Assembly (NCBI GenBank): GCA_946408305.1
Contig: CAMJRQ010000085.1
Span: 1 to 5,795, forward strand
Length of the DNA: 5,795 nucleotides
Direction: 5' to 3'
Source of the DNA: an uncultured Prevotellaceae bacterium
GTDB lineage: Bacteria; Bacteroidota; Bacteroidia; Bacteroidales; Bacteroidaceae
Shown here: piece by piece, positions 1-5,795 of the stretch
How the letters are laid out: every line of letters starts with the position of its first letter
How positions within the stretch are numbered: position 1 is the first letter of the stretch
The notes under the pieces: model-generated
The model's database searches: none
The model's input: the letters and a program-made list of their open reading frames with translations, nothing else
Told to the model about the DNA's origin: nothing
Position numbers and translations under genes: made by a program

Positions 1-3000
1 TTCACCAACGAGGGCGGATGGGCCGCACAGGGCAACCTCAACCTGCAAGCGTCCGACATCGGCTCGGTCAACGTGACGGCCGAAATCGAGACCGCCGGCT
101 TCGGAGGCATCGAGCAGAGCGTGGCCTCGCGCTCCGACGAGGACAACGTCAACTACTCCGTCACCACCAACGTAGAGCTCGGACGACTGCTGCCCGAGAA
201 AGCCCGCGTCAGCGTGCCACTCTACTACAACTACAGCAAGGAGACCATCAAGCCGAAGTACAACCCCTTCGACACCGACATGCTCCTCGAGGACGCCCTC
301 GACGCACTCACCACCCGCGCACAGAAAGACTCGCTCCGCTCGCTCACCACGCGCACCGAGACATCCAAGAACCTCTCCTTCACCGGCATGAAGGTCAACA
401 TCGTCTCGCCCAAGCACCCCATGCCCTACGACCCGGCCAACTTCACCTTCAACTACAGCCACTCCACCCAGAGCACCGAGGGCGAAACCACCGTCTATGA
501 GCACGAGAAGAACTGGCGCGGAGGCATGAACTACGCCTGGAGCCCCAACTGGAAGGCGTGGGAGCCGTTCAAGAAGCTCAAGTCAAAGAGCAAGTGGCTC
601 GACCTCGTCAAGGCCCAGAACCTGGCCTTCGCACCCCAGAGCCTCACCTTCTCCACCGACATCAACCGCACCTACTACGAGCTGCAGGAGCGTGACCTCG
701 ACAACATCGAGCAGCCCTCTGCTCTGCCCGCCAGCTTCAGCCAGTCGTTCTTCTGGAACCGCAACTTCCAGCTCCGCTGGGACATCTTCAAGGCCCTCCA
801 CTTCACCTTCCAGAGCGGCACCCGCGCCGAGGTGGAGGAACCCTACATGCAGGTGAACAAAGACCTATACCCCGACCAGTATTCGGCCTGGAAAGACTCC
901 ATCAAGATGAGCCTCCGCAACTTCGGACGCCCCCTCGACTACAACCAGACCACCCAGATGAGCTACAAGGTGCCCCTCGACAAGATTCCGGCCCTCGACT
1001 GGGTGTCGGCCGACGGAACCTACAACGCCACCTACAACTGGCGCCGCGGTGCCGTGATGGAGGACGGCTCCACGCTGGGCAACACCATCAACACGCAGCG
1101 CGCCGTCAACCTGAACGGCAAGCTCGACCTCGAGAAGCTATACAACCACAGCAAGTTCCTCCAGGAGGCCAACAAGCGCTTCTCGGCCACCAGCGCCAAG
1201 AACGCCGCCAACAAGAAGAAGCAGGAGAAACAGCGTGCCGACGAGGCCAAGAAGCGCGAGAAGGAGAGCGCTGCCGCACAGCGCAAGCGTGCCGAGGAAG
1301 AGGCAGCCAAGACGGGCGAAGACGTAGACTCCGTCTTGAACCGTATGAAGGCTGCCGCACCCGCTCCCCGCCAGAGCAACGCCCGCGGGCAGAGCCAGCA
1401 GAAGGAGAAGGAGAAGAAGGGCTACGCCGAACAGATTACCCTCTACCCCGACTCCATCCTCGAAATCACCCATAACCAGAAGAGCAAGCGGCTGCGCGTC
1501 TCGGCCCTCGACAGCACCGGACACCCCTATAAAATCAAGTTCAAGAAGGTGGACGAGAACAAGATTCGCATCACCCGCGCCCCCGACGATACCACCCAGA
1601 TACGCCTCAACGTCATCGCCCTGCCGCCGCGCGAGGAGATGAAGGGCTACTCCTTCCTCCAGACCGCCGCACGCTTCGCCATGATGCTGCGCAACGTCTC
1701 CGTCTCCTACCGCAACACCTACAACCTGGCCCTGCCCGGCTTCCGTCCCAACGTGGGCGACATGCTCGGCCAGACACGCCGCGACGGACTCTTCAACCCC
1801 GGACTCGACTTCGGCTTCGGCTTCGTCGACGACGACTACATCGACCGCGCCAAAAACCGCCAGTGGCTCCTCTGCTCCGACAGCGTGGCCACGCCCGCCA
1901 CCACTGCCGTCACCGAAGACCTGCAGGTGAAGATAGCCCTCGAGCCCTTCACCGACCTCAAGGTGGACCTCAACATGAGCCGCACCGACAACCGCAACAA
2001 GAGCATCCAATACATGTATCAAGGCAACCCCACCACCCAGAACGGTTCCTTCAACATGACCACCATCAGCCTCAAGACGGCCTTCGCCTCGCGCGGCAAG
2101 GTGTCGAACGGCTATCGCAGCAAGACCTTCGACCGCTTCCAGCAGAACCTGGCCGTCATGCAGCAGCGCGTGGAGCAGCGCTACATGGGCACACGCTATC
2201 CCGAAGGTACCGGCATGAGCGGAGAGTTCAACCCCGAGAACGGCACCGTCAACCCCTACAGCTCCGACGTCATGATTCCCGCCTTCCTGGCCGCCTACAC
2301 CGGAGGCGACGTCCATCGCCGCTCGCTCGACATCTTCCCCGCCATCACCAAGATGCTACCCAACTGGAGCGTCACCTACAAGGGACTGAGCAACCTGCCC
2401 TGGATTCGTGACCATCTGAAGAGCGTCACCCTCACCCACGCCTACAAGAGCATCTACGCCGTAGGCTCCTACAACTCCTACAGTTCCTGGATTGAGACCA
2501 TGGGCAGCGGCGGCGCCATGGGCTATGCCCTCAACACCACCACCGGCACCTACCAGCCCTCGTCGATGTACGACATCTCCACCGTCTCCATCAACGAGAA
2601 CTTCTCGCCCCTGATTGGGCTCAACGTGACGATGAACAACAACATGACCGTGAAGCTCGAGTACAAGACCGCACGCGTCATGAACCTCTCCATGACCAGC
2701 GCCCAGCTCAACGAGACGGGCTCCAAGGACTTCGTCATCGGATGGGGCTACAAGATCAACGACTTCCGCCTCTCCAGCCTCTTCGGCGGACGCAAGGCCA
2801 GCGCACAGGCGGCCAAGCAGAACCGTTCACGCAGCAGCAGCAAACAAAAGACAACAGACAAAGGACAACAGACAACAGAGAACAAACAATCGTCGCGCTC
2901 GGGCAAGAGCAACTTCGCCCACGACCTGAACCTGCGCTTCGACTTCTCGCTGCGCAACCAGGACGCCATCAAGCGCGACCTCCAGACGAGCCTCTGCGAG

Positions 3001-3180
3001 GCCACCTCGGGCAGCAAGGCCATCAAGACCAGCGCACAGGTGGACTACACCGTATCGCGCATGGTCACGCTCAGCCTCTACTATGACCGCCAGCGCTCAC
3101 AGCCGCTCCTCTCCTCCAGCAGCTACCCCACCGTCACGCAGGACTTCGGCCTCAGCATGAAGTTCTCGCTCACGCGGTAA
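1..3180 (+). CDS. sprA: SprA, type IX secretion outer-membrane translocon (5'-partial)
   Basis: This is the C-terminal 1,059 residues of SprA (Sov in Porphyromonas), the very large outer-membrane beta-barrel through which type IX secretion cargo leaves the periplasm. The frame is open to the left edge, so the true start lies outside; the family is usually well over 2,000 residues. Seen here (window residue numbers): TNEGGWAA at 2-9 and DIGSVNV at 19-25; PEKARVSVPLYY with YNPFDTDM at about 65-94; the block PREEMKGYSFLQ at 542-553 followed by a RNVSVSY strand; PGFRP at 579-583; PGLDFGFGF at 600-608. These are recognisable SprA signatures. The protein ends in an aromatic beta-strand (FGLSMKFSLTR), as expected for an intact barrel C-terminus. 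Two hydrophilic low-complexity segments interrupt it: a Lys/Glu/Ala-rich stretch at about 391-475 and a Ser/Gln/Thr/Lys-rich stretch at about 940-975. I see no frameshift. Family assignment is firm; organism-specific function is inferred. Confidence 0.92.
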   Translation, partial: FTNEGGWAAQGNLNLQASDIGSVNVTAEIETAGFGGIEQSVASRSDEDNVNYSVTTNVELGRLLPEKARVSVPLYYNYSKETIKPKYNPFDTDMLLEDALDALTTRAQKDSLRSLTTRTETSKNLSFTGMKVNIVSPKHPMPYDPANFTFNYSHSTQSTEGETTVYEHEKNWRGGMNYAWSPNWKAWEPFKKLKSKSKWLDLVKAQNLAFAPQSLTFSTDINRTYYELQERDLDNIEQPSALPASFSQSFFWNRNFQLRWDIFKALHFTFQSGTRAEVEEPYMQVNKDLYPDQYSAWKDSIKMSLRNFGRPLDYNQTTQMSYKVPLDKIPALDWVSADGTYNATYNWRRGAVMEDGSTLGNTINTQRAVNLNGKLDLEKLYNHSKFLQEANKRFSATSAKNAANKKKQEKQRADEAKKREKESAAAQRKRAEEEAAKTGEDVDSVLNRMKAAAPAPRQSNARGQSQQKEKEKKGYAEQITLYPDSILEITHNQKSKRLRVSALDSTGHPYKIKFKKVDENKIRITRAPDDTTQIRLNVIALPPREEMKGYSFLQTAARFAMMLRNVSVSYRNTYNLALPGFRPNVGDMLGQTRRDGLFNPGLDFGFGFVDDDYIDRAKNRQWLLCSDSVATPATTAVTEDLQVKIALEPFTDLKVDLNMSRTDNRNKSIQYMYQGNPTTQNGSFNMTTISLKTAFASRGKVSNGYRSKTFDRFQQNLAVMQQRVEQRYMGTRYPEGTGMSGEFNPENGTVNPYSSDVMIPAFLAAYTGGDVHRRSLDIFPAITKMLPNWSVTYKGLSNLPWIRDHLKSVTLTHAYKSIYAVGSYNSYSSWIETMGSGGAMGYALNTTTGTYQPSSMYDISTVSINENFSPLIGLNVTMNNNMTVKLEYKTARVMNLSMTSAQLNETGSKDFVIGWGYKINDFRLSSLFGGRKASAQAAKQNRSRSSSKQKTTDKGQQTTENKQSSRSGKSNFAHDLNLRFDFSLRNQDAIKRDLQTSLCEATSGSKAIKTSAQVDYTVSRMVTLSLYYDRQRSQPLLSSSSYPTVTQDFGLSMKFSLTR
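1189..1425 (+). other. Charged Lys/Glu/Ala-rich segment within SprA
   Basis: Window residues about 397-475 of SprA are strongly hydrophilic, alternating Lys/Arg with Glu and Ala (for example NKKKQEKQRADEAKKREKE), then APAPRQ and QQKEKEKK before the next beta-rich block. The first part could form a short charged alpha-helix or coiled coil; the second looks disordered. It is flanked by beta-strand-like sequence, so it is probably an extended loop or periplasmic/extracellular insertion of the barrel. The codons match the rest of the gene (AAG, GAG, GCC), so nothing suggests recent insertion. Its role is unknown. Confidence 0.6.
2841..2890 (+). repeat. A-rich GACAACA repeat embedded in sprA
   Basis: GACAACA occurs three times (2850-2856, 2864-2870, 2871-2877) within an A-rich, almost T-free tract, with related GACAAAG and GAGAACA units between and after. 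It is translated in frame as a Lys/Gln/Thr-rich linker (KQKTTDKGQQTTENKQ). The tract uses AAA, ACA and CAA codons, whereas the rest of the gene uses AAG, ACC and CAG almost exclusively. It therefore looks like a short non-coding-type repeat that expanded or inserted inside a permissive loop without breaking the frame. Its direct neighbour is a GCAGCAGCAGC run at 2831-2841. Confidence 0.65.
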
Positions 3181-3193
3181 GACGGCACCGAAG

Positions 3194-3241
3194 AAACGCC
3201 ATGAGGGCAGGCCTTGCTGCAAGGCCTGCCCTCATGCGTTT
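3194..3241. terminator. Bidirectional intrinsic terminator between sprA and the lipoprotein gene
   Basis: A perfect 16-bp inverted repeat (3201-3216 against 3220-3235) has a 3-base CTG loop. It extends by AAACGC (3194-3199) pairing with GCGTTT (3236-3241) around a single bulged C at 3200, giving about 22 base pairs. The arms are GC-rich (GAGGGCAGGCCTTG), and the outer A and T bases supply a short T-tract on both strands. It begins 14 bases after the sprA stop and lies 34 bases beyond the stop of the convergent lipoprotein gene, so one hairpin can end transcription from both sides. The T-tract is short, which lowers certainty about efficiency but not about the structure. Confidence 0.85.
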
Positions 3242-3274: not shown

Positions 3275-3484
3275 TTATTTGTACCAATTGCCGGCATCGG
3301 GGTATTCGATGTTCAGAGTCATCTTCTCGCCCTCCTCGGTGAAAGTCACCGTGGGCTTGATTTCACCGTTCACCAATTGCTCATAGAGCTGATTGAAGTC
3401 GGGTCCCTTTTCATCGTCGCTGCACGAGGTCAGACAGATGGCGCCCACAAACAGTGAGGCAGCCAGAAACAGATACTTTTTCAT
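3275..3484 (-). CDS. Small surface-type lipoprotein, function unknown
   Basis: A 69-residue protein with a lipoprotein signal peptide: MKKY, a hydrophobic core (LFLAASLFVGAICL) and the lipobox LTSC with the acylated Cys at 21. The mature part, only 49 residues, begins Cys-Ser-Asp-Asp-Glu. In Bacteroidetes, acidic residues just after the lipidated Cys act as an export signal that moves lipoproteins to the cell surface, so an outer-leaflet location is likely (inference from that rule). The rest is acidic and beta-prone (KPTVTFTEEGEKMTLNIEYPD), ending GNWYK before TAA; I recognise no domain. The start is an ATG followed by AAAAAG, preceded by an AT-rich leader. The gene stands alone, convergent with sprA and downstream of cimA on the same strand, with over 260 bp between. 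It could be a complete small lipoprotein or the remnant of a longer one. Confidence 0.82.
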   Translation of the reverse strand: MKKYLFLAASLFVGAICLTSCSDDEKGPDFNQLYEQLVNGEIKPTVTFTEEGEKMTLNIEYPDAGNWYK

Positions 3485-3560
3485 GTTGCTTAAATTAAAA
3501 TAACAATTACCCCCTATTTTTAACTTCAGTTAACTCAAAATGGAGCAATAAAAATGGTGT
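3485..3560 (-). promoter_or_regulatory. AT-rich leader/promoter region of the lipoprotein gene
   Basis: Directly upstream of the lipoprotein start, GC content falls sharply compared with the flanking genes, as expected for a promoter region. I see no clear Bacteroidetes sigma-ABfr pair (TTTG with TAnnTTTG at the usual spacing), so no exact -33/-7 call is made. The leader has no strong Shine-Dalgarno sequence, as is usual in this phylum. Confidence 0.4.
3520..3533. promoter_or_regulatory. Small palindrome TTAACT-TC-AGTTAA, possible operator
   Basis: A perfect 6-bp inverted repeat with a 2-base spacer lies 36-49 bases upstream of the lipoprotein start codon, where a repressor or activator site could act. 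The element is short and AT-rich, so chance is a fair explanation. It is separate from and unlike the TTACA array further upstream. Confidence 0.3.
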
Positions 3561-3615
3561 TTGTGGTGTAGTTTCAGGGGAAAAGCCGGGCAACATGCTT
3601 CTGATGTGCTCAAAA

Positions 3616-3717
3616 CGGTGCTTTTACACGAGCGTTACACCACGGTGTAATCTTTTTACACGCGGGATGTAAAAGTTTTACAGCGTGGTGTAACGGACGT
3701 GTAAAAACGCCGGTGCT
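3616..3717. repeat. Mirror-symmetric array of eight TTACA/TGTAA motifs
   Basis: Eight copies of TTACA or its complement TGTAA lie in one short stretch. Their central bases are at 3626(+), 3637(+), 3648(-), 3658(+), 3670(-), 3680(+), 3691(-) and 3702(-). Spacings are 11, 11, 10, 12, 10, 11 and 11 bp, about one helical turn each. The outer part is a 23-base inverted repeat (3622-3644 against 3684-3706) differing only at the two central spacer bases. Nested palindromes include TTACACC-AC-GGTGTAA (3635-3650) and TGTAAAA-G-TTTTACA (3668-3682). CGGTGCT occurs directly on both sides (3616-3622 and 3711-3717). The array lies between the 3' end of cimA and the leader of the lipoprotein gene. It could be a cooperative protein-binding array, a palindromic repeat element, or an RNA stem acting as a terminator or stabiliser. 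The structure is seen directly; its function is unknown. Confidence 0.8.
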
Positions 3718-3720
3718 ACG

Positions 3721-3745
3721 AAGAAAAAGAGGAGAAGCGGTCTCC
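3721..3745 (-). terminator. Weak terminator-like hairpin after cimA
   Basis: Read on the minus strand, the sequence right after the cimA stop codon gives GGAGA-CCGCT-TCTCC followed by TCTTTTTCTT. A 5-bp stem (3731-3735 with 3741-3745) plus a T-rich tract has the form of an intrinsic terminator, but the stem is short. If it is inefficient, transcripts would read into the TTACA array, whose long stem could then be the true 3' end. Confidence 0.4.
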
Positions 3746-3746
3746 G

Positions 3747-5285
3747 TCAGGGAGTGGCGAAGTCGGCTTCGATGATGTTGAGCATCTTGACCGTGGCCTT
3801 GATGGCGGCCTCGGTCTGGTCGGCATCGAAGCCGCGGGTGCGGATGTCGCGGTCGGCCCACCGCCACGAAATGACGGTCTGGACGAAGGCATCGGTGCGC
3901 CCGCCGGGAGGGATGGAGACGCTGTAGTTGGTGAGCCAGGGGAAGGGGCGGCCGAGGCGGTTCTTGTAGACGTGGCGCACGGCACGGACGAAGGCGTCGA
4001 ACTGTCCGTCGCCCTGGGCGCTCTCCTCGTAGGTCTGGCCGTTTATCTCCATGCGGATGCTGGCCAGCGGTTTGAGGCCGTAGGCGGTGGTGACGACGTA
4101 GGAGAGCAGGCGGACGTGCTCGTCGGGCGTGCCGTGCTTGAGCACATCGCTGACGATGAAGGGGAGGTCGTCCTGCGTGACAATCTCCTTTTTGTCGCCC
4201 AGCTCGATGATGCGCTCCGTCACGCGGCGCGTCTGTTCGGGCGTCAGTTCGAGGCCCAGCTCCTCCAGGTTGCGCAGGATGTTGGCCTTGCCCGAGTTCT
4301 TGCCCAGGGCGTATTCGCGCTTGCGGCCGAAGCGCTCGGGCAGCAGGTCGTTCTGGTAGAGCCCGGCCTTCGAGTCGCCGTCGGCATGCACGCCAGCCAC
4401 CTGCGTGAAGACGTTGTCGCCCGTAATAGGCTGGTTGGGCGGGATGGCGATGCCGCTGTAGCTCTCCACCAGGCGCGACACCTCGTTCAGGCGGCTCTCG
4501 TCGATGTGGGTGAGGGCCTCGAACTGGTCCTTCAGGATGGCCTGCACGCTGGCCAGCGGAGCATTACCTGCCCGCTCGCCCAGCCCGTTCACACTGGTGT
4601 GTATGCCCTGGCAACCGCCCAGCACGGCAGCCAACACATTGCTGATGGCCAGGTCGTAGTCGTTATGTGCATGGAAGTCGAAGCGGAGCTGGGGATAGCG
4701 TTTCCGCATGCGCCGCATGTAGCTGATGAGGTCCAGGGGGTTGAGGATGCCCAGCGTGTCGGGCAGCATGAAGCGGTCTATGCCTGCGTCCTGCAGAGCA
4801 TCTACCATCTGGAAAAGATACTCGGGACTTTCCTTCATGCCGCGGCTCCAGTCCTCGAGGTAGAGGTTTACGCCTACTCCCTTCTCCCGTGCATAATCCA
4901 CCACGCGCCGAATGTCGGCAATATGTTCCTCGGGCGACTTCTTCAGCTGACCTGTGCAATGCTTCAGGCTGCCCTTGCAGAGCAGGTTGAGCCTGCAGCC
5001 CCCGGCCTCCAGAATCCAATCCACGCTGGCCGTGCCGTCCACAAATCCCAGCACCTCTACGCTGTCCAGACGTCCGGCTTGACGGGCCCAACGGGTGATG
5101 CTCTTCACGGCCTCCATCTCGCCCTCGGAGACGCGGGCACTGGCCACCTCGATGCGGTCCACATTGACATGCTGCAACAGGGCGCGAGCAATGACCAGCT
5201 TCTCGTGGGGCATGAAGCTCACTCCGCTCGTCTGCTCGCCATCGCGCAGCGTGGTGTCCATTATCTCAATCCATCGTCTTTCCAC
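3747..5285 (-). CDS. cimA: (R)-citramalate synthase
   Basis: A 512-residue enzyme of the isopropylmalate/citramalate/homocitrate synthase family, predicted to condense pyruvate with acetyl-CoA to (R)-citramalate, the first step of threonine-independent isoleucine synthesis. The catalytic barrel has DTTLRDGEQ at 10-18 (Arg14, Asp15), the metal-binding HAH at 205-207, NGLGERAGN at 233-241 and GVHADGD at 298-304. The C-terminal LeuA-type allosteric domain covers about 385-512. Compared from memory with Leptospira CimA (516 residues), similarity runs the whole length. The pyruvate-pocket residues Leu81, Leu104 and Tyr144 match Leu79, Leu102 and Tyr142, and the catalytic Glu146 matches Glu144. The isoleucine-site residues Leu451, Tyr454, Ile458 and Val468 are present at the same numbers. 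The start is GTG: the frame has a TAA five codons upstream, and the next Met (9) sits directly against the catalytic strand. It follows a TraB/GumN gene by 58 bp on the same strand. Many annotations would call it 2-isopropylmalate synthase (leuA). Confidence 0.85.
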   Translation of the reverse strand: MERRWIEIMDTTLRDGEQTSGVSFMPHEKLVIARALLQHVNVDRIEVASARVSEGEMEAVKSITRWARQAGRLDSVEVLGFVDGTASVDWILEAGGCRLNLLCKGSLKHCTGQLKKSPEEHIADIRRVVDYAREKGVGVNLYLEDWSRGMKESPEYLFQMVDALQDAGIDRFMLPDTLGILNPLDLISYMRRMRKRYPQLRFDFHAHNDYDLAISNVLAAVLGGCQGIHTSVNGLGERAGNAPLASVQAILKDQFEALTHIDESRLNEVSRLVESYSGIAIPPNQPITGDNVFTQVAGVHADGDSKAGLYQNDLLPERFGRKREYALGKNSGKANILRNLEELGLELTPEQTRRVTERIIELGDKKEIVTQDDLPFIVSDVLKHGTPDEHVRLLSYVVTTAYGLKPLASIRMEINGQTYEESAQGDGQFDAFVRAVRHVYKNRLGRPFPWLTNYSVSIPPGGRTDAFVQTVISWRWADRDIRTRGFDADQTEAAIKATVKMLNIIEADFATP

Positions 5286-5302
5286 TCTAATTGCTCTTTA
5301 TG

Positions 5303-5343
5303 TTTGACCTCTTGACCTCTTGAAGTTTGAACTCTTGAACCTC
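5303..5343. repeat. Short degenerate TTGACCTC/TTGAACTC repeats between the TraB/GumN gene and cimA
   Basis: Five imperfect units occupy most of the 58-bp intergenic gap: TTTGACCTC (5303-5311), TTGACCTC (5312-5319), TTGAAG (5320-5325), TTTGAACTC (5326-5334) and TTGAACCTC (5335-5343). On the transcribed (minus) strand they read GAGGTTCAAGAGTTCAAA and so on, so they would form part of the untranslated leader before the GTG start of cimA, ending about 18 bases before it. The array begins directly after the TGA of the upstream gene. I see no matching hairpin, and its role is unknown. Confidence 0.65.
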
Positions 5344-5795
5344 TCATCTCACAGGCTCTACCTTGTATCCCTCGCAGCGAAGCATGGCTATCAGCCCATC
5401 GGCATCCAGCAGATGGCGGCAGCCGACGGCAATCAGGCAGGGACGGGAGGCTATGTTCTCCTTGATGACGGGTATCCAGGCCTCGTTCCGCTCACGAAGA
5501 AGGTGCTTGTTCTGGTAGTCATTCATCTCGCCCATTGCTTTTTTCGCTTCATCTCCTTTGCTTCCCATAGCCTCAAGTCGTATATTCATCTCCTGGGCGC
5601 TTTCCTCGAAATAGCGCTGGAGCTTGCTGGTGTCGTTCTCCAGATAGACTGTGTGCAACTTGGGACTTTGGAATACACTATCATTGTCGAGAGAATGGAC
5701 AAGCGTGTAAACTATCTTTGCCTGCTCCTTCATGGAGAGCGTATCAATGGATTCCGTATCGGAGAACATGGGCATTAACTTTCCCATCCCAAAGG
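5344..5795 (-). CDS. TraB/GumN family protein, C-terminal part (5'-partial)
   Basis: The visible 149 or so residues are the C-terminal half of a TraB/GumN-family protein; full members are usually near 290 residues. The frame stays open to the right edge, so the ATG at 5785-5787 is probably an internal Met. Family features, numbered from that Met: a mainly helical middle part, ERN at 99-101 followed by Trp104, then VGCRHLLDADGL at 121-132 and the ending GYKVEPVR before TGA. The GxxHLxxxxGL motif near the C-terminus is the family hallmark. The family is proposed to include metal-dependent proteases related to Tiki; the N-terminal GxxH motif that would complete the active site lies outside the window. 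Bacterial members are often secreted or lipid-anchored, but no signal peptide can be judged here. It is co-oriented with cimA and may share a transcript. Physiological role unknown. Confidence 0.78.
   Translation of the reverse strand, partial: FGMGKLMPMFSDTESIDTLSMKEQAKIVYTLVHSLDNDSVFQSPKLHTVYLENDTSKLQRYFEESAQEMNIRLEAMGSKGDEAKKAMGEMNDYQNKHLLRERNEAWIPVIKENIASRPCLIAVGCRHLLDADGLIAMLRCEGYKVEPVR

Follow-up and report, generated by a model that had tools for sequence, protein, structure and literature searches.

A phased array of TTACA/TGTAA half-sites in the window

We analysed a 5,795-nucleotide (nt) stretch of DNA from an uncultured Prevotellaceae bacterium (contig CAMJRQ010000085.1 of assembly GCA_946408305.1; hereafter the window), in which an array of short inverted half-sites lies between a cimA-like gene and an open reading frame (ORF) for a small lipoprotein-like product, with the end of sprA beyond (Table 1). 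The array lies about 40 bp beyond the stop codon of the cimA-like gene and about 140 bp upstream of the start codon of the lipoprotein-like ORF. Inspection of this intergenic region reveals eight TTACA/TGTAA 5-mers starting at 3624, 3635, 3646, 3656, 3668, 3678, 3689 and 3700, with strands running ++-+-+-- and spacings of 11, 11, 10, 12, 10, 11 and 11 bp, exactly the motifs, centres, spacings and orientations listed by an initial annotation of the window. The inverted repeat to which the annotation referred is equally real, its arms covering the array and being 82% complementary.

The array was compared with shuffled and related DNA by the length of its chain, that is, of consecutive TTACA/TGTAA words spaced 10-12 bp apart. 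Eight of the nine such words in the whole window belong to this single chain. No chain longer than two arose in 300 dinucleotide shuffles of the window, and the longest chain in 2000 shuffles of positions 3480-3746, or in 5000 shuffles of 3616-3712, was three, reached once in each case. The best other 5-mer family in the window likewise forms a chain of three, and across 80 cimA loci (0.93 Mb of related DNA) no TTACA/TGTAA chain exceeds two and no array resembles that of the window. A chance origin was rejected on the basis of these shuffles and of the multi-copy arrays of relatives described below. A motif-blind score, which seeks three palindromes 21-23 bp apart with no fixed half-site, gives z = 3.9 for positions 3540-3790, a value reached by one of 1000 shuffles; the palindrome centres found include three at a 21.5-bp pitch, with one outer half-site at each end. 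Rows of palindromes at about this pitch (~22 bp) place their half-sites on much the same side of the helix.

Here and below, G labels denote the genomes compared and L labels the loci read. By eye, TGCTNC(G)-like words recur in steps of about 11 bp beside the array, at 3590-3625 in the window and more clearly at 5140-5220 of L177 in G007; they may constitute a second phased motif.

Table 1. Features of the window and their coordinates.
Feature	Position	Strand	Basis or remark
Phased array of eight TTACA/TGTAA half-sites, ++-+-+--	3624..3704	.	Word search and shuffles
Outer half-site TTACA	3624..3628	+	Matches the leading + half-site of the L104 and L179 arrays
Palindromic unit 1 (TTACA...TGTAA), centre 3642.5	3635..3650	.	
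Palindromic unit 2 (TTACA-N7-TGTAA), centre 3664	3656..3672	.	
Palindromic unit 3 (TTACA...TGTAA), centre 3685.5	3678..3693	.	
Inter-unit palindrome TGTAAAAGTTTTACA	3668..3682	.	Shared with the G007 C77 and G245 C5 arrays
Outer half-site TGTAA	3700..3704	-	
Left arm of long imperfect inverted repeat (82%)	3616..3660	+	
Right arm of long imperfect inverted repeat	3668..3712	-	
Citramalate/isopropylmalate synthase-type gene, cimA-like	3747..5285	-	Under NCBIfam equivalog cut-offs
69-amino-acid (aa) lipoprotein-like ORF	3275..3484	-	Without Pfam or NCBIfam match
C-terminal part of SprA/Sov (type IX secretion system translocon)	1..3180	+	TIGR04189; convergent neighbour

Arrays of the same type are dispersed in related genomes

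Relatives were searched as a genus set (139 genomes of the window's probable genus, including G001 and G007) and a family set (399 genomes). When ten genomes were searched by blastn, matches under E = 0.1 were confined to a single locus, in G007 (best E = 3e-5), where an array of the form ++-+-++- has spacings of 12, 11, 10, 12, 10, 21 and 12 bp. The rule is TGTAA-N5-TTACA-N7, with a period of 22 bp. Allowing at most one mismatch, the rule matches 18 of the 139 genus genomes; since its reversed control touches 27 genomes, never with more than two matches in any, single matches carry no weight. At least three matches are found in eight genus genomes: G221 (21+19), G185 (7+8), G007 (5+5), G210 (4+5), G009 (5+3), G239 (2+2), G173 (1+2) and G245 (2+1). 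For G256 (1+1) the array was confirmed on reading the locus. Arrays of this motif, for which the initial annotation had suggested that related genomes be searched, therefore stand in several copies in about nine of the 139.

In the family set, a pattern of four half-sites, searched with at most two mismatches, matches 22 of 399 genomes, nine of them at least twice (G307, 37; G444, 24; G437, 6; G007 and G159, 5 each; G210 and G239, 3 each; G101 and G420, 2 each). Its reversed control leaves no genome with two or more matches and ten with a single one, compared with 13 for the real pattern. Among 32 loci read, 18 hold seven to nine exact half-sites over 83-94 bp, eight hold three to six, and six hold none by the rule. 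Relatives keep the same alternation of 10- and 12-bp spacings, such that same-face phasing is the retained feature, while the spacer letters follow a style specific to each genome. The annotation had read this phasing as that of a protein-binding array, and on sequence evidence its retention is consistent with such a role. The annotation had named a stem kept in relatives at the expense of motif and spacing as the outcome that would refute its reading, and this is not what is seen: single long-hairpin (mirror) pairing outside the half-sites reaches z ≥ 3 in only 2 of 21 arrays, those of the window and L181, and a long RNA hairpin was rejected as a conserved feature on this ground.

The genes beside these arrays are unrelated to one another and include those for phosphoenolpyruvate carboxykinase, arginine decarboxylase, nqrA/nqrB and glycosidases. 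Four genomes carry an array of drifting sequence between nqrA and nqrB (L250, L254, L255 and L256, in G437, G101, G465 and G066, respectively), with both genes assigned by Pfam in G066 and nqrB in G437; in G101 and G465 the flanking ORFs, called heuristically, agree in length and order. This array is either functional or an old shared insertion. A blastn search of the window array against plasmid and phage records gave no match. Viral origin was considered and rejected: 21 viral stretches match the four-half-site pattern, but the longest chain is exactly four in all 21, and these were treated as chance. Beside the TTACA array of L170 (G185), another two palindromes, built as AATGTTCACCA...TGGTGTAACACCA...TGGTGAACATT, lie at positions 5270-5410.

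Phased arrays adjoin DUF6078 genes

In G239 and G420, a TTACA array has on one side a gene for a 144-aa DUF6078 protein (PF19555) and on the other a 700-aa gene in which Pfam identifies BT4734_N, VapE-like and DUF3874 domains. PADLOC assigns the first domain of the latter as PrimPol, and the rest matches phage helicase/primase families by PHROGs. The order DUF6078-array-PrimPol/VapE recurs in G231 and in Parabacteroides distasonis. DUF6078 itself is found in 82 of the 139 genus genomes at E ≤ 0.001, 79 of them over the curated cut-off.

Inspection of DUF6078 flanks reveals arrays of the same pitch built from different half-sites, among them TCCCA/TGGGA, TATCA/TGATA, TTACC/GGTAA, TGCCA/TGGCA, AGTACT and GTTTC. 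The motif-blind score was applied to 42 distinct DUF6078 proteins of at least 110 aa (30 from the best-scoring loci of the 82 genomes, seven from 11 hand-picked regions and five from other searches); the flanking sequence was long enough for 41 genes on the 3' side and for 41 on the 5' side. A score of z ≥ 3 was reached on the 3' side by 22 of 41 and on the 5' side by 2 of 41. Flanks of other ORFs reached it in 18 of 468 cases, a control that is conservative because it includes loci chosen for their arrays. Without G239, G420 and G009, which were known beforehand from their arrays, the 3' count is 20 of 38. Plasmid- and phage-labelled records, each collection searched with one DUF6078 query, yielded eight matches, of which seven have a 3' array (z ≥ 3.3) and none a 5' array. 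The eighth (L409), on plasmid pTS1 of Treponema saccharophilum and hence outside Bacteroidota, has a GTTTCA-type palindromic 3' flank with z = 2.1. Across 24 arrays, protein identity correlates with similarity of the array motif (Mantel r = 0.56, with none of 2000 permutations as high). A subgroup of DUF6078 genes has, by eye, GTCCG/CGGAC-like arrays upstream (L260, L262 and L264; looser in L259 and L263).

DUF6078 is a small protein with four invariant cysteines. Its structure model has a mean predicted local distance difference test (pLDDT) score of 91.8, and residues 67-139 weakly resemble helix-turn-helix repressors; a sequence search returned no solved structure. For three DUF6078 proteins Pfam gives PF19555 only, with no match in PHROGs or PADLOC. 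A Foldseek likeness to IS200/IS605 transposases, among the top Protein Data Bank rows, was not used (E = 1.6 or worse, TM-score about 0.2). BT4734 genes were rejected as a constant partner of the array, as a TTACA array stands at one of 30 BT4734 loci, some of which are cut by contig ends and some of which carry other repeats. Different upstream iteron-like repeats (CCTACATAA...TTATGTAGG) accompany other PrimPol-VapE genes at L187 and L188.

Gene-adjacent motifs recur at dispersed loci of the same genome

A TGCCA-type search matches 28 of the 139 genomes, 17 of them at least twice, with forward matches numbering 40 in G006, 18 in G231 and 14 in G009; its reversed control gives one match in each of four genomes. 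In G006, G009 and G231 one TGCCA array adjoins DUF6078, while 7, 7 and 4 further loci read hold arrays matching it in style (TGGCAC in G006 and G009, TGGCAAA in G231). The steps of these arrays are 22 bp, except for two steps of 44 bp and one of 45 bp, and in G231 the PrimPol-VapE gene lies behind the DUF6078-adjacent array. G007 and G087 also have DUF6078 genes with 22-bp TGCCA arrays (L289 and L266), with 6 and 5 matches, respectively.

For TCCCA, a prediction set beforehand, that genomes with a DUF6078-adjacent TCCCA array would stand out, was borne out in four of four, with forward matches of 24 in G231, 16 in G269, 6 in G281 and 18 in G119. In comparison, 28 of 139 genomes have any match and 12 have at least four (p = 3e-5, the threshold of four having been chosen after the counts were seen), and the reversed control gives one match in each of two genomes. 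Among the places listed, those of G119 and G231 are dispersed away from DUF6078, G269 and G281 being known by counts only, and the single match of G197 lies beside DUF6078.

In P. distasonis TSDC17.2-1.1, an array lies between DUF6078 (protein WP_011966740.1) and a BT4734/BF3469 gene. This array matches 35 places in 12 records among 72,556, all of them P. distasonis, and no gene is listed beneath 11 of the 12 best places. Five dispersed copies from the same strain, read by eye because the computed list of centres is noisy, show GTTTC/GAAAC half-sites about every 22 bp. The P. distasonis records NZ_OY7257xx-8xx (L411, L417-L421) are filed as plasmids and carry core genes such as pnp; they look like chromosome contigs. 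Overall, the gene-adjacent palindrome is dispersed within the same genome in G006, G009, G231, G119 and P. distasonis. Such dispersal is not seen for every DUF6078 gene, the TTACA type of G239 being an example.

A probable orphan copy of a dispersed repeat

The arrays are dispersed, keep a pitch of about 22 bp and fall into several motif types with genome-specific styles, and copies of them are physically paired with DUF6078 genes. The window array is probably an orphan copy of this dispersed extragenic repeat of Bacteroidales, which would have spread in the manner of repetitive extragenic palindromes (REPs) or miniature inverted-repeat transposable elements (MITEs), with DUF6078 as its likeliest binder. 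DUF6078 is favoured for this role because arrays accompany many of its genes and because, in several genomes, the motif beside the gene agrees with the dispersed one. Successive palindromes, two helical turns apart, may be filled cooperatively by a dimeric DNA-binding protein, of which the DUF6078 product with the matching motif type is the likeliest, such that filled neighbours would form a short nucleoprotein stack. The array beside its own DUF6078 gene would be the home site, and other copies would have spread as non-autonomous repeats, either as solo arrays or joined to a second hairpin element, much as REPs do around genes for REP-associated tyrosine transposases (RAYTs). With no cognate gene in view, the window copy between cimA and the lipoprotein gene would be a passive target or a relic.

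Several results weigh against this reading. G245, G221 and G007 are rich in TCCCA matches (24, 14 and 11), and no TCCCA-type DUF6078 was seen in them; conversely, G236 is devoid of TCCCA matches though the sequence flanking its DUF6078 gene (L283) partly shows this motif. The TTACA-rich draft genomes mostly have no TTACA-type DUF6078, and 4 of 19 genomes rich in TGCCA or TCCCA arrays have no DUF6078 over the cut-off (p = 0.03 for the association).

Larger element forms and a possible mobile replicon

At L162 of G221 the array is centred in a non-coding repeat whose terminal inverted repeats are 141 bp long (92%) and hold a ATCTATCACATCTATCAC hairpin each. Homology to four further copies extends over about 736-749 bp, other copies being shorter or cut by contig ends. 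Hairpins of the ATCTATCACATCTATCAC kind also lie about 8-220 bp from the array in G007 (L105, L177, L179), G256 (L181) and G221 (L160). Of 19 arrays examined, two (L162 and L181) are surrounded by long inverted repeats; around the window array, neither long inverted repeats nor a second hairpin were found within 1 kb. A ATCTGTCAC iteron hairpin, of the type accompanying dispersed arrays, occurs at the stop codon of the G239 VapE gene. It is found in eight of 139 genus genomes, six of them among the nine strong-TTACA genomes (p = 2.5e-7), the nine having been picked by eye from search results and loci read.

As to how copies spread, a mobile element is suggested by the PrimPol-VapE gene and by the hairpins paired with arrays, and the dispersed arrays would be its non-autonomous derivatives. 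In a rival reading, the arrays themselves could be iteron-like ends or origins of an element driven by the PrimPol (BT4734_N)-VapE helicase, with DUF6078 as an accessory and the dispersed copies as internally deleted, MITE-like forms. The recurrent gene order, the G239 hairpin and its concentration in TTACA genomes, and the L162 repeats all speak for such an element, and PrimPol-helicase fusions are described in PMC5862659 as predicted replication modules of mobile elements. Nonetheless, a VapE gene lies in the short flank of only 6 of the 30 best-scoring DUF6078 loci, 29 of the 30 BT4734 loci show no TTACA array, and the window and many other copies have no second hairpin. We consider this rival unlikely, though more probable than those that follow.

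Other explanations

The arrays may instead be chromosome-organising or global regulatory sites of a host nucleoid protein, which DUF6078 genes merely happen to carry. The drifting nqrA-nqrB array of four genomes fits this proposal, yet several motif types coexist within G231, G007 and G221, which is unlike a single core nucleoid protein, and for each of three motifs searched at least 111 of the 139 genus genomes have no match. We regard it as improbable.

Somewhat less probable still is action as RNA, with 3'-untranslated hairpins terminating or stabilising transcripts as do REPs and bacterial interspersed mosaic elements (BIMEs). The position of the window array past the cimA-like stop codon fits, as do several others 8-140 nt past a stop codon (on heuristic ORF calls), and for 14 of 21 arrays, including that of the window, the minimum free energy lies below that of spacer-shuffled controls with a z of -2 or beyond. 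However, RNA hairpins need no exact 22-bp pitch, and other arrays lie between divergent ORFs, likewise called heuristically (L104, L172, L363, L375, L376). A known RNA family was rejected, as an Rfam covariance search gave only two matches, both at chance level (E = 2.1 and 3.4) and far under the gathering score.

A dedicated operator of the lipoprotein gene, which the initial annotation had offered and which the upstream position of the array would suit, is very improbable, as the same array type stands beside unrelated genes and the gene order was not found in seven relatives. Of that annotation's interpretation the phased, protein-site-like array is supported and the operator is not, and the dispersed DUF6078-linked family is not visible from the window alone.

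Genomic setting of the window copy

Of the genomes compared, G001 has the closest CimA (93% identity), whereas a SprA comparison with eight genomes places G221 nearest (82%, versus 78% for G001). In none of the seven relatives with an sprA match, out of the eight searched, was cimA found within 1.5 kb of sprA, and one relative (G005) has a weak lipoprotein-like match near sprA. The ORF that follows cimA at L001 and L010 resembles leuB; since cimA of the window has no such neighbour, its locus may be rearranged. No replication initiator gene (PrimPol/VapE) was found among the window genes in a Pfam scan. Between sprA and the convergent lipoprotein ORF, positions 3200-3236 form a 17-pair GC-rich hairpin, terminator-like on both strands. 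At L334 of G001 (C21), a ATCTGTCAC hairpin adjoins AACAACGCCGTTGTTT palindromes.

Comparison with known systems

Iteron arrays and the operators of ParB- and MetJ-type proteins consist of phased half-sites bound cooperatively. Unlike these, the array motif type here differs between genomes, and no Rep, ParB or MetJ-type gene was found among the array neighbours scanned by Pfam. A close parallel in behaviour is REP/BIME-RAYT (IS200/IS605-like), for which PMC2817692 describes dispersed extragenic palindromes with one copy beside a gene, a motif proper to each gene, and joint divergence of motif and protein. The arrays and DUF6078 share these traits. The system works like REP/RAYT but misses three of the four defining features tested. 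A constant GTAG/GTGG head is absent from the 24 derived half-sites (GTGG occurs in four, inside the palindrome); the three DUF6078 proteins scanned by Pfam have no Transposase_17 (Y1 transposase) match; DUF6078 arrays are usually one-sided (3' versus 5', 22 of 41 against 2 of 41 and 7 of 8 against 0 of 8); and tandem units at a 22-bp pitch replace two flanking inverted REPs.

BrickBuilt of Porphyromonas gingivalis, as set out in PMC4596501, is a non-coding, dispersed MITE in which terminal inverted repeats enclose a tandem array, and the G221 element resembles it; the BrickBuilt units are direct repeats of 23 nt and its ends are short and of IS5 type, whereas the units here are palindromic and the G221 ends are 141 bp long and hairpin-bearing. 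PINSR of Prevotella intermedia, compared by its description in PMC4755523 only, is likewise a dispersed intergenic repeat of a Prevotella lineage, 188 bp long and stated to lack terminal inverted repeats. The gene beside several arrays belongs with the PrimPol-VapE/VirE modules (BT4734_N, VapE-like and DUF3874 domains, PADLOC PrimPol), and searches of the literature on these turned up neither arrays of this kind nor DUF6078 alongside them. Outside subscription journals and preprints, which the search did not cover, no paper on DUF6078 was found, nor any description of the array family in work on REP/RAYT in Bacteroides, on Bacteroidetes/Prevotella repeats or on P. distasonis palindromes.

Implications

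Going beyond the orphan-repeat reading, we tentatively propose that DUF6078 could found a new class of DNA-binding proteins that recognise specific sequences and form stacks, each protein co-diversifying with its own 22-bp-pitch array. Matching arrays would be seeded genome-wide, with or without a PrimPol-VapE replicator, and would give gut Bacteroidales private and fast-changing networks of sites that do not descend from REP/RAYT. Should the association hold, Bacteroidales would possess their own counterpart of REP/RAYT, in which the arrays are linked to a widespread gene whose function is unknown. It would give DUF6078 a testable role, might explain intergenic repeats found at contig ends, and would supply naturally occurring pairs of protein and site that differ in specificity. 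P. distasonis is a cultured gut species, and with its DUF6078 gene and 35 array-like matches it makes a direct test possible. That one motif recurs both beside DUF6078 and at dispersed loci in several genomes suggests that a protein and scattered DNA sites may be partners in a way not recognised before.
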